64,000 bases of DNA from Paracoccus aminovorans (GTDB lineage Bacteria > Pseudomonadota > Alphaproteobacteria > Rhodobacterales > Rhodobacteraceae). Shown one piece after another: positions 50,772 to 58,272 of this stretch. Location: the NCBI RefSeq assembly GCF_900005615.1, contig NZ_LN832559.1, positions 2,076,837-2,140,836 of the forward strand. The letters are read 5' to 3'. The first letter of the stretch is position 1. Every line of letters starts with the position of its first letter. The notes under the pieces are model-generated. The model had not been told where the DNA came from. It did no database searches and saw only the letters and a program-made list of their open reading frames with translations. A program made the position numbers and the translations under genes.

Positions 50772-52376
<1,605 letters not shown>

Positions 52377-52377
52377 G

Positions 52378-53052
52378 TCATTCCGCCCAATGCACGGTGA
52401 TGTCGCCCAGGAAGGCCTTGATCGGCGCCTCGGTGGGATCGAGGTTGCGGGCGCGTTCCAGCGCCTCGCGCTTGTCGGCGCCAGTGATCAAGAGATGGGT
52501 GTTGATCGCACCCTTCAGCGCCGATGCGGTCAGGGTGATGCGCGGGTCGTCCTTGAGACTGGTCACCGCCATCACCGGCGGCGCATCGGGGGCCAGCGCC
52601 AGCACCGTCTCGGAAGCCGCGGGGAACAGGCTGGCCGTATGCATGTCGGTGCCCATGCCCAGAAGCAGCACGGTCAGCGGCAGGTGCGGCGCGATCGCTT
52701 CGCACAGCGCGGGAACCGCATCCCCCGGGGCGGGATCGCCGGTATAGAGATCGACATAGGGCGCCGCCGCGGCCTTGTCCTTGAGCAGGTGGCGGCGCAG
52801 CAGCCGGCCGTTCGAGCGCAGATGCTCGCCATCGACCCAGCGCTCGTCGTTGAGCATGACCGTGATGCGCGGCCAGTCGATCTCGCTGCCCGAGAGATAG
52901 TCGTAGAGCGGCGCCGGGGTGGTGCCGCCGGGCACGCAGAGGCTGGCGGCGTCGTTCACCCGCAGATGCTGCGCCAACTGGCCGCCGATGCGGTCGGCCA
53001 GCGACAGGAACAGCATCTCGCGGTCGGGATAGTCGACGAAATCCAGGCTCAT
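52378..53052 (-). CDS. pgl: 6-phosphogluconolactonase
   Basis: The 224-residue enzyme hydrolyses 6-phosphogluconolactone. DevB/SOL-type features: [39 protein letters not shown] and [17 protein letters not shown]. The start at 53052 overlaps the zwf stop (ATGA), so the pair is translationally coupled. A start six codons upstream is possible but lies inside zwf without need. Confidence 0.95.
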
Positions 53053-54500
53053 GAGCGTATCTCCCTCCACCGGCGGTTGTCGCGGTGCAGCAGGCGCAAC
53101 GCCTCCTCGGGACCGCTGGATCCCGGGTCGTAGGGCTCGGGGCGTTTCGTGCCATGCTCCCAGGCGGCGATGATCGGGTCAGTCCAGGCCCAGGCGGCCT
53201 CGACCTCGTCGCCGCGCATGAACAGCGTCTGGTTGCCGCGGATCACGTCCATGATCAGCCGCTCATAGGCGTCGGGCATGTCGCTGCCCTCGGGACCCAG
53301 CGCATCGGCGAAGCTCATGTCCAGCGGCACCTGCACCAGGCGCATGCCGCCAGGACCGGGTTCCTTGATCATCATGGTCAGCACCATGCCCTCGTCCGGC
53401 TGCAGCCTGATGACCAGCTGGTTCGCCTTGTGGCTGCCGCCGTCGTCGAAAAGCGAATGCGGCGGTTCCTTGAAGGTGATGACGATCTCGCTGGTGCGGG
53501 CGCGCAGGCGCTTGCCGGTGCGCAGGTAGAAGGGCGTCCCGGTCCAGCGCCAGTTCGCGACATGCACCTTCAGCGCGACGAAGCTTTCGGTGCGCGACTC
53601 GGGGTTTTCGGCATCATCGAGATAGCCGGGGCCGTCGCGGCCGGCCAGATACTGGCCGCGCACGACCTCGTCGGCCGAGACCGGTTCCAGCGCCCGGATC
53701 ACCTTCAGCTTCTCGTCGCGCACGGCGTCGGAATCGATGTGATAGGGCGGCTCCATGGCGATCAGGCACAGCAGCTGCATCATGTGATTCTGCACCATGT
53801 CCCGCATGGCGCCGGAATGGTCGTAATATTCGCCGCGGCCGCCGACGCCCACCGTTTCGGCGACGGTGATCTGGACGTGGTCGACATATTGCGCGTTCCA
53901 CAACGGCTCGAACAGGATATTGGCGAAACGCACCGCCATCAGGTTCTGGACGGTTTCCTTGCCCAGGTAATGGTCGATGCGATAGATCTGGTTCTCGGCG
54001 AAATGCCGGGCCAGGGTGGCGTTCAGCGCCCGCGCGGTCTGCAGATCGCGGCCGAAGGGCTTTTCGACCACGATGCGGCTGTCCTGGTCGGCGATGCCGT
54101 GATCGGCCAGCCGGTCTGCGATGTCGCCGAAAAGCGCCGGCGCCACCGAGAAATAGAAGGCATGCACCACCCCCGGCCGCATCCGCGCCTTGAGCTCGGC
54201 CCAGCCTTCGCTGCCGCGGGCGTCGATGGCGACATAGCCCAGCAGGTCGAGAAAGGCCGCAACGCTGCTTTCATCCTGCCCGTCGCCCAGGAATTCGCGG
54301 ATCGCGGCGCGCATCTCGGCACGGAATCCGTCGTCGTCCTGGGCGGTGCGGGCGGCGCCGATGATGCGGGCGCTTGCGGGCAACTGGCCGGCCTTGAACC
54401 GTCGGTAGAGACCCGGCACGATCTTGCGCCGGGCCAGGTCGCCAGTGGCGCCAAAGATCACCAGGTCGAACGCCTCGACCGGAATGACGCGTGAAACCAT
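53049..54500 (-). CDS. zwf: glucose-6-phosphate 1-dehydrogenase
   Basis: The 483-residue enzyme oxidises glucose-6-phosphate with NAD(P). Key sites: IFGATGDLARRKIVPGLY (nucleotide fold), VEKPFGRDL, RIDHYLGKETVQNLMAVRF (active site) and GRGEYYDHSGAMRDMVQNHM. Start at 54500 has GAGGAGG nine bases upstream. First gene of zwf-pgl-pgi. A 14-base operator sequence shared with edd lies 37 bases before the start. Confidence 0.97.
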   Translation of the reverse strand: MVSRVIPVEAFDLVIFGATGDLARRKIVPGLYRRFKAGQLPASARIIGAARTAQDDDGFRAEMRAAIREFLGDGQDESSVAAFLDLLGYVAIDARGSEGWAELKARMRPGVVHAFYFSVAPALFGDIADRLADHGIADQDSRIVVEKPFGRDLQTARALNATLARHFAENQIYRIDHYLGKETVQNLMAVRFANILFEPLWNAQYVDHVQITVAETVGVGGRGEYYDHSGAMRDMVQNHMMQLLCLIAMEPPYHIDSDAVRDEKLKVIRALEPVSADEVVRGQYLAGRDGPGYLDDAENPESRTESFVALKVHVANWRWTGTPFYLRTGKRLRARTSEIVITFKEPPHSLFDDGGSHKANQLVIRLQPDEGMVLTMMIKEPGPGGMRLVQVPLDMSFADALGPEGSDMPDAYERLIMDVIRGNQTLFMRGDEVEAAWAWTDPIIAAWEHGTKRPEPYDPGSSGPEEALRLLHRDNRRWREIRS

Positions 54501-54534
54501 CGCTGCCTCCTCATCGCTTATCTGTCGATTAGCG

Positions 54535-54552
54535 GATGTTAGCGGTAACATC
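54535..54552 (-). promoter_or_regulatory. operator before zwf (Entner-Doudoroff regulator site)
   Basis: GATGTTA-GCGG-TAACATC is an 18-base palindrome with perfect 7-base arms. Read on the zwf strand it contains ATGTTACCGCTAAC, identical to the site before edd. It lies within the likely promoter (TTGCAG-N16-TAACAT on the minus strand), so a bound protein would block transcription. The palindrome type fits LacI/GntR-family repressors; no such gene is in the window. Confidence 0.75.
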
Positions 54553-54575
54553 AAGTGCTGCAAAGTCATTGGCGT

Positions 54576-55160
54576 TCAGTCCTGTTTCCGCGCCATCCCA
54601 CCGGCGGCGAAAGGGGGCGGCGGCGCGTCGGGTTCCAGCCGCGCGATCGCCTTGGCCAGGCGCGGCAGCCGGGCGCGGCGCATCAGCTCCTTGCGGGTCA
54701 GCGCCGCACCGGCGGCGCGGGCGCGGGCCTCAGTCGCCTCGACGGCCGCGAGCAAAGGCTCGGGGGCGCGCAGGTAGAGATCGCGCAGGAATTCGTCGGG
54801 ATGGACGGCCTGCAATCCCAGCGCGGCCAGCGCCCCGCGCGGGAAGTCGCGCAGATTCGCGGTGACGATAGTGCCGGCGCCGGCAGCCAGCGCCGCCTCG
54901 ACCACATGGCGGTCGGCGGGGTCGGGCAAGTCCAGACCCTCGGCGCCGCCAGAGGGCGCGACCCGTGCCTGCGGCAGGCGCGATTCCAGCAGCGCGATCT
55001 CGGCCCCCGCCTCCAGCCCCTGGCGGGCGGCGGCATGGCGCCATTCGTCGAGGATGCGTTGCGACCAGACCGGCCGGTAAAGCCCGGCCGCCGCGGCGCC
55101 GATCAGGATTTCGCGCAGCACGGTCGGGAACAGGACGCAGGCGTCCAGGACCGCCTTCAT
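54576..55160 (-). CDS. PIN-domain protein
   Basis: The 194-residue product begins MKAVLDACVLFPTVLREIL, the first acidic strand of a PIN nuclease, has DRHVVEAALAAGAGTIVTAN with the further acidic residues, and NLRDFP typical of the family. PIN domains cut RNA and are often toxins, but no antitoxin gene is adjacent. The ATG at 55160 overlaps the rRNA methyltransferase stop (ATGA). The C-terminal 60 residues are basic helix. Confidence 0.8.
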   Translation of the reverse strand: MKAVLDACVLFPTVLREILIGAAAAGLYRPVWSQRILDEWRHAAARQGLEAGAEIALLESRLPQARVAPSGGAEGLDLPDPADRHVVEAALAAGAGTIVTANLRDFPRGALAALGLQAVHPDEFLRDLYLRAPEPLLAAVEATEARARAAGAALTRKELMRRARLPRLAKAIARLEPDAPPPPFAAGGMARKQD

Positions 55161-56353
55161 CCGTCCAGCCGGAAGAACAGCGCCTTGAGATAACCGGTCT
55201 CGGCCAGCTGCGGCAGCGTCGGGTGATCGGGCCCGGCCTGGCCGGTATGCAACAGCTGCATCCGCCGTCCGCCCCGCCCGATACCCCGCGCCGAGGCGTT
55301 GCGGAAGGCGGCCAGATCGGCGGCATGGCTGCAGGAGCACAGCGCCAGATAGCCGCCCGGCGCCACCAGCGGCGCGGCGAGCTTGGCCACCCGTTCATAG
55401 GCGCGCAGGCCCGCCTCCAGCGCCGGTTTCGAGGGCGCGAAAGCCGGCGGGTCGCAGATCACCAGGTCGAAGCGTGCGCCCTCGGCGGCCAGCGCCTCCA
55501 TCTGCGCGAAGGCATCGCCCTGGCGAATCGCCAGCCGCGATTCGGCGCCCATGGCGCGCGCGCCGCCCTGCGCCAGCTCCAGCGCCGCGGCCGAGCCGTC
55601 GACGCAGGTGGCATGGACCGCCCCTGCGGCCAGCGCGGCCAGACCGAAGCCGCCGACATGCGAGAACACGTCCAGCACCCGCGCGCCCTTGGCCAGACGT
55701 TGCGCAAAGGCATGATTCGGGCGCTGGTCATAGAACAGGCCGGTCTTTTGCCCGCCCATCAGGTCGGCCAGATAGACGGCGCCGTTCATCGGCACCTCCA
55801 CCGGCCCGGACAGGCCGCCCGCGAGCAGTTCCATCCGCTCGGGCAGCCCTTCCAGCCCGCGCGCCCGACCCTGCCCGTTCAGGATCACGGCGGATACGCC
55901 GGTGACCGCCTGCAGCGCGTCGGCGATGTCGCCGGCCATGCGCTCGGCCCAGGCGGCGTTGGGCTGGATCACCGCGGCATCGCCGAAGCGGTCGATGATG
56001 GTGCCCGGCAGGCCGTCGGCCTCGGCATGGACCAGGCGATAGAAGGGCGCGTCGAACAGCCGTTCGCGCAGCGCCAGCGCCCGGCGCAGCCGCGCGGCGA
56101 TCCAGTCGCGGTCGACCTGGGCCTGCGGGTCGGGGTCCATGATCCGGGCGATGATCTTCGATTCGGGGTTGACCGTGACCAGGCCCAGCGGCCGGCGCTC
56201 GGCATCCTCGAGCAGCGCGAAACTGCCCGGCGCAATGGACCGCGTGCGTCGGTCGGTAACCAGTTCGTCGGCAAAGACCCAGGGAAAGCCGTGGCGGATC
56301 GCCTGCGGCTTCGACTTGGGACGCAAGCGGATGGTGGGCAGATCGGCGGTCAT
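55157..56353 (-). CDS. RlmI-type 23S rRNA (cytosine-C5) methyltransferase
   Basis: The 398-residue protein has an N-terminal PUA-like domain (RLRPKSKPQAIRHGFPWVFA) and a class I methyltransferase domain with VLDVFSHVGGFGLAALAAGA, LVICDPPAFAPSK and YLALCSCSHA. Of known members, RlmI makes m5C1962 in 23S rRNA. The start at 56353 gives MTADLPTIRL. Translation is coupled to the PIN protein downstream, a possible link of RNA modification and RNA cutting. Confidence 0.9.
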   Translation of the reverse strand: MTADLPTIRLRPKSKPQAIRHGFPWVFADELVTDRRTRSIAPGSFALLEDAERRPLGLVTVNPESKIIARIMDPDPQAQVDRDWIAARLRRALALRERLFDAPFYRLVHAEADGLPGTIIDRFGDAAVIQPNAAWAERMAGDIADALQAVTGVSAVILNGQGRARGLEGLPERMELLAGGLSGPVEVPMNGAVYLADLMGGQKTGLFYDQRPNHAFAQRLAKGARVLDVFSHVGGFGLAALAAGAVHATCVDGSAAALELAQGGARAMGAESRLAIRQGDAFAQMEALAAEGARFDLVICDPPAFAPSKPALEAGLRAYERVAKLAAPLVAPGGYLALCSCSHAADLAAFRNASARGIGRGGRRMQLLHTGQAGPDHPTLPQLAETGYLKALFFRLDG

Positions 56354-56418
56354 GGCGGCCCTCGTGCAAAACGCGGCAGGATTGCCATGCCGCGCGCCCG
56401 CGGGCAAGAGCCGGCCGG

Positions 56419-56447
56419 TTGCAATGTTACCGCTAACGGACTACATT
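56419..56447 (+). promoter_or_regulatory. edd promoter with operator in the spacer
   Basis: TTGCAA (56419-56424) and TACATT (56442-56447) are 17 bases apart. The spacer carries ATGTTACCGCTAAC (56424-56437), the same 14 bases found on the zwf strand at 54551-54538. A protein bound here would occupy the promoter itself. Confidence 0.75.
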
Positions 56448-56469
56448 GGCGGCAAAGGAGAAGCCAGCC

Positions 56470-58272
<1,803 letters not shown>

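Follow-up and report, generated by a model that had tools for sequence, protein, structure and literature searches.

Predicted CceR/GapR-type operators inside the zwf-pgl-pgi and edd promoters of Paracoccus aminovorans

The genes zwf-pgl-pgi and edd of Paracoccus aminovorans are preceded by closely similar sites which, judging from sequence comparison, are very probably (we put the probability at about 0.93) operators of the LacI-family regulator CceR (GapR; RSP_1663 in R. sphaeroides), a protein that would block the promoter spacer and be released by 6-phosphogluconate. The observations behind this reading are the sites and their conservation, an aligned promoter layout around them, and a LacI-family gene that has an operator-like site of its own. 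Together they locate the predicted operators of a central sugar switch to the base and show how its promoters are laid out across a genus.

An exact scan of the window, that is, the whole 64-kb stretch of DNA that was analysed, finds ATGTTACCGCTAAC twice, at 54538-54551 on the zwf strand (minus) and at 56424-56437 on the edd strand (plus), just as the initial annotation had it. Its description of the zwf copy as an 18-base palindrome with perfect 7-base arms also holds, this copy being located inside GATGTTAGCGGTAACATC at 54535-54552, while the edd copy differs from TGTTANCGNTAACA by one mismatch. ATGTTACCGCTAAC is one instance of a pattern whose conserved core is GTTANCGNTAAC. The features of the region, in window positions, are the following:

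50772..52376, minus strand: pgi, glucose-6-phosphate isomerase
52378..53052, minus strand: pgl, 6-phosphogluconolactonase
53049..54500, minus strand: zwf, glucose-6-phosphate dehydrogenase; ATG at 54500 taken as start, with GAGGAGG before it
54526..54531, minus strand: zwf -10-like element TAATCG, a weak hexamer 17 bases from the -35 element; from alignment
54535..54552, minus strand: predicted CceR/GapR-type operator of zwf-pgl-pgi, 18-base palindrome with its 14-base core at 54537-54550
54549..54554, minus strand: zwf -35-like element TTGATG, its last two bases inside the 14-base core; from alignment
56419..56424, plus strand: edd -35-like element TTGCAA; from alignment
56425..56438, plus strand: predicted CceR/GapR-type operator of edd, TGTTACCGCTAACG, kept in 18/18 genus genomes
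56442..56447, plus strand: edd -10-like element TACATT, 17 bases from the -35 element; from alignment
56470..58272, plus strand: edd, 6-phosphogluconate dehydratase

The mechanical zwf reading frame begins upstream, at 54569, and relatives align at the ATG start at 54500. The stretch between zwf and edd (54576-56353, minus strand) holds a gene for a PIN-domain protein (RSP_2648 family) and one for an RNA methyltransferase (RSP_2647 family, RlmI-like). Among the matches listed, nine genus genomes carry two exact operators about 1.85-1.91 kb apart on one contig, and the pattern suggests that the zwf-edd arrangement with its intervening genes is kept in the genus.

The simplest alternative is that a 14-mer recurred in two promoters by chance. 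The window does contain 575 different recurring 14-mers, although only 2 of them hold at least 8 A/T in this GC-rich DNA, and a first-order model with window composition predicts 1.3e-5 exact copies of the 14-mer per 64 kb. Scans that allow up to three mismatches return 3 matches to the 14-mer (one being the zwf site on the opposite strand) against 1.03 expected, a count that 8 of 100 shuffles reach, and 3 matches to TGTTANCGNTAACA against 3.00 expected; such loose window scans are therefore not decisive. Conservation across the genus is a stronger test than window chance statistics, and it is the retention of the sites in place and in sequence across the genus, together with the identity of the family loci described below, that makes chance recurrence extremely improbable.

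Conservation was counted in 18 genus genomes, our own included, from an automatically chosen set of relatives that covers part of the genus; a site had to match at least 10 of 12 positions within 250 bases upstream, with the gene start held. By this measure the edd site is kept in all 18 genomes and the zwf site in 15, and 0/2280 random 250-base pieces reach 10/12, these pieces having been taken downstream of gene starts and hence being mostly coding DNA. Upstream of zwf in three Paracoccus genomes (G002, G007 and G012; rows L174, L175 and L176), no site of at least 10/12 is found within 1500 bases; the same three genomes keep the edd site. The one outgroup genome scored (G030, from another family and outside the 18) reaches 8/12 and 7/12, with no such site. 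Three truncated rows were dropped, namely L147 (edd of G016, cut by the contig), L299 (pckA, 5' part missing) and L311 (glgP, contig edge), and L148 and L177 were replaced by L158 and L181, which are 5' pieces of the same genes and were left unjoined. G016 has no zwf match among the relatives searched; the zwf of G022 and distant edd paralogues stand outside the properly examined set.

Broader scans lead back to the same two genes. Among 125 genomes of the genus, 77 contain exact TGTTANCGNTAACA and 8 the reversed control pattern (counted from the table), and the 29 genus loci with exact TGTTANCGNTAACA that were fetched, the window's own locus left out, comprise 18 zwf, 8 edd and 3 unmatched loci, so that 26/29 are zwf or edd. 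At the level of the family, the perfect palindrome GTTAGCGCTAAC is found in 242 of 394 genomes. Because the reversed control also matches in many of these 394, what counts in the family scan is which genes the sites belong to: 30 loci with GTTAGCGCTAAC were fetched, one per genome, and 15 of them are edd and 5 zwf (20/30), one is eda, one is a LacI gene that shares 50% identity with cceR, and the remaining 8 have no match among the 11 own-genome proteins used.

The position of the sites relative to the putative promoters is equally regular. When sequences are aligned on the operator, TTG stands 6 bases before and TA 3 bases after the 14-base core at all 18 edd sites, and at all 15 zwf sites the corresponding distances are 4 and 5 bases; in both alignments the spacer between TTG (-35) and TA (-10) is 17 bases long. 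These offsets were chosen after viewing the alignment of the same sequences. A strict consensus promoter scan of 54480-56500 found none, which is why the -35 and -10 elements rest on the alignment. The claim of the initial annotation that the sites lie inside both promoters is thus supported by the aligned elements, with the strict scan empty. The edd operator fills 14 of the 17 spacer bases, and the location of the sites within the -35/-10 spacer suggests repression by blocking of RNA polymerase.

We propose that under low sugar flux a CceR dimer would sit in the spacers of zwf-pgl-pgi and edd and block RNA polymerase, and that 6-phosphogluconate, which is the product of the zwf and pgl steps and the substrate of Edd, would release it, so that a central intermediate of the pathway would itself act as inducer. 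Binding of the CceR orthologue of this genome to precisely these sites, and the steric nature of the block, are what we infer. The directions of control (repression and activation, from P. denitrificans proteomics) and the ligand would carry over from published work: PMC5507952 and PMC4419725 both cite Imam 2015 for CceR with 6-phosphogluconate as its signal.

The initial annotation had spoken of a two-promoter regulon. The operator common to zwf-pgl-pgi and edd stands, and the regulon so drawn is too narrow, as eda, gntP, pckA, a fructokinase-like gene, glgP and a regulator gene carry sites as well. Throughout the genome (4.04 Mb on 4 contigs), exact GTTANCGNTAAC occurs at 5 places against 0.12 expected (first-order model, window composition), and these precede zwf, edd, eda, a GntP-type gluconate permease gene (gntP) and a glycogen phosphorylase gene (glgP). 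Sites with one mismatch precede pckA, the fructokinase-like gene (132.6 bits, under the 450-bit cut-off) and a LacI-family regulator gene. The further hits anticipated from the window, at eda, at sugar uptake and at a regulator, are therefore present: eda and the gluconate permease gene carry the exact core and the LacI-family gene a one-mismatch site. The inverted repeat GTT N6-8 AAC, the published CceR/GapR motif, is present before the target genes here. From site to gene start the gap is 36 bases for zwf, 31 for edd, 52 for gntP, 67 for eda (where the protein match begins 76 bases on, the ATG lying 9 bases earlier), 100 for glgP, 32 for the fructokinase-like gene, 131 for pckA and 22 for the regulator.

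Beyond these genes the signal fades. With one mismatch, the 13-base pattern gives 10 forward and 7 reverse matches against 3 and 5 for the control, and three one-mismatch places (C1:67844, 2926071 and 3032708) have no central-metabolism gene alongside, the second of them falling inside a flagellar-type reading frame, to go by its translation. The 14-base pattern with 2 mismatches matches at 30 places in the genome against 26 for its reversed control, with no clear excess, and KWTANCGNTAWM matches at 14 against 30, fewer than the control. Since there is no excess at that mismatch level, weaker targets cannot be called, and the weaker genome sites were dropped as operators; at least four of them fall within long open reading frames (L033, L037, L042 and L047).

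The additional targets are conserved to differing degrees. The pckA site is found in 26 of 29 genus rows, at a distance of about 80-119 bases upstream where relatives have retained it, and its position 131 bases before the start in our genome would fit activation of gluconeogenesis by CceR. The gene diverges from the HPr kinase gene (hprK), the intergenic region being on C1 (L010 1369-1619), and by eye the region upstream of pckA shows the main site and two half-site-like stretches closer to the gene. A site precedes eda in 11 of 29 rows and, for glgP, in 3 of 18; identity to our protein is no more than 59-63% among the glgP relatives, which may be paralogues.

The regulator was expected outside the window and of LacI/GntR type, and a candidate of this description exists: a LacI-family gene of 339 aa whose helix-turn-helix part is encoded at C1:834866-835003, with the operator-like CGATAACGGTAACA standing 22 bases before its start. 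It is most likely the CceR orthologue, and its predicted site would make it autoregulated. The protein is 95% identical (322/338) to one of P. denitrificans DSM 413 and 75% identical to one of R. capsulatus; its nearest named relatives, up to 96% identical, are all Paracoccus, and its best solved relative, 3kjx, is a LacI-family regulator that bears no specific name. To judge its neighbours by translation, the gene is not clustered with its targets. Its presumed orthology to RSP_1663 rests on lineage, on the regulator's own site and on the P. denitrificans relative.

The regulator's own site, sought within 260 bases upstream or in the first 30 bases of the match, reaches at least 10/12 in 42 of the 80 named relatives kept out of 568 found. 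It is present in 12/12 rows of the group L050-L061, in 2/37 of L062-L098 (nearly all Paracoccus) and in 28/31 of L099-L129 (other genera and bins), and the 2/37 points to its having shifted or degenerated in a large part of the genus. Many of the regulator genes in L062-L098 keep only the half site CGCTAACAT, about 30 bases upstream, with no full palindrome.

The genome holds 3 LacI-type genes, and the main binder might be one of the other two, or a local gluconate repressor of GntR-like type: the motif resembles GntR-type operators, the gluconate permease gene carries a site, and in NCBIfam the candidate matches GntR of Pseudomonas best, though at 277 of 400 bits it stays under the cut-off. 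Against this, the other two LacI genes have no adjoining site in the genome scans (the nearest is about 11 kb away), whereas the candidate's site is 22 bases upstream, and the spread of targets over zwf, edd, eda and pckA agrees with the published global regulon. We hold such a different binder to be unlikely. Much less probable still is control of the HexR type (RpiR family), which governs glycolysis and Entner-Doudoroff genes in gamma-proteobacteria (PMC5507952); the regulator reported in Rhodobacteraceae is CceR/GapR (PMC5507952; PMC4052901), and our sites have a central CG, as described for LacI-type palindromes in PMC4052901 (1173 TFs).

The sites at zwf and edd have a one-sided centre. 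Their central base proximal to the -35 element is A, C or T, and the G that would complete the palindrome occurs in 0/33 Paracoccus sites, a count in which shared descent reduces the number of independent cases. Likewise, the places with exact TGTTANCGNTAACA in the genus scan have a one-sided centre in all but one genome (G059), among the matches listed, and some other genera of the family show the perfect palindrome at zwf or edd. It is conceivable, though we consider it doubtful, that in Paracoccus the zwf and edd operators, held in the spacer and with a one-sided centre, have been tuned down in strength. Two observations speak against this: 4 of the 26 pckA sites have a symmetric centre, all four with arm mismatches, and eda sites show either polarity. 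The genus scan had also suggested that the ideal palindrome is avoided, an idea ruled out by the abundance of GTTAGCGCTAAC in the family (242/394 genomes) and its position at edd or zwf in 20 of the 30 fetched loci.

A related claim was that the sites have the same orientation to each gene. Read in gene direction, the zwf and edd sites are indeed NCGC in 33/33 cases, but orientation carries little weight for a near-palindromic site, and those of eda occur in both orientations (3 NCGC, 8 GCGN). The pckA sites comprise 7 NCGC, 15 GCGN and 4 GCGC. A fixed operator polarity as a general rule was rejected, the eda and pckA sites being mixed.

We take CceR and GapR to be the same protein; in the literature the two names go with the same family, overlapping targets and the same group of bacteria. 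The regulon described here is most likely the one already known as that of GapR/CceR (RSP_1663), a master regulator of sugar breakdown in Paracoccus, Rhodobacter and their relatives, and predicted in 2014-2015. Sequence read blind can thus lead back to a regulon already in print, and the current view is unchanged. Ravcheev et al. (2014; PMC4052901) studied 13 Rhodobacteraceae genomes and predicted GapR (RSP_1663) in every one, with targets that include zwf-pgl-pgi, edd-eda, pckA and scrK and, in five of the 13 genomes, its own gene. RSP_1663 is likewise predicted to act on Zwf, Pgl, Pgi, PckA and others, with the motif GTT N6-8 AAC (PMC4344238). A cceR deletion in P. denitrificans was later studied by comparing proteomes on glyoxylate (PMC11323563, 2024): in its absence Zwf, Pgl, Edd, Eda, Pgi and a gluconate transporter go up, and PckA, MaeB and Fba go down, the evidence on CceR taken from that paper concerning protein levels and not binding.

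The GapR regulon of Rhodobacteraceae in PMC4052901 therefore resembles ours in its LacI-family regulator, its palindromic operator and its targets zwf-pgl-pgi, edd-eda, pckA, scrK and the regulator's own gene. Its list adds fba, gapA/B, eno, pykA, tal, mdh and pycA to the genes compared here; conversely, glgP and gntP carry sites here and are absent from that list as quoted. The CceR regulon of P. denitrificans (PMC11323563) concerns the same genus and the same enzymes, and differs in that ours is another Paracoccus genome, approached through sequence only. PckR of Rhizobiales and GluR of Caulobacter are also LacI-family global regulators predicted on zwf, edd and other central genes, but are reported as non-orthologous to GapR and as having other motifs (PMC4052901). 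Cra/FruR of enterobacteria and HexR of gamma- and beta-proteobacteria are alike in controlling genes of both sugar breakdown and gluconeogenesis, yet they respond to other effectors (PMC4419725), and HexR belongs to another protein family (PMC5507952).
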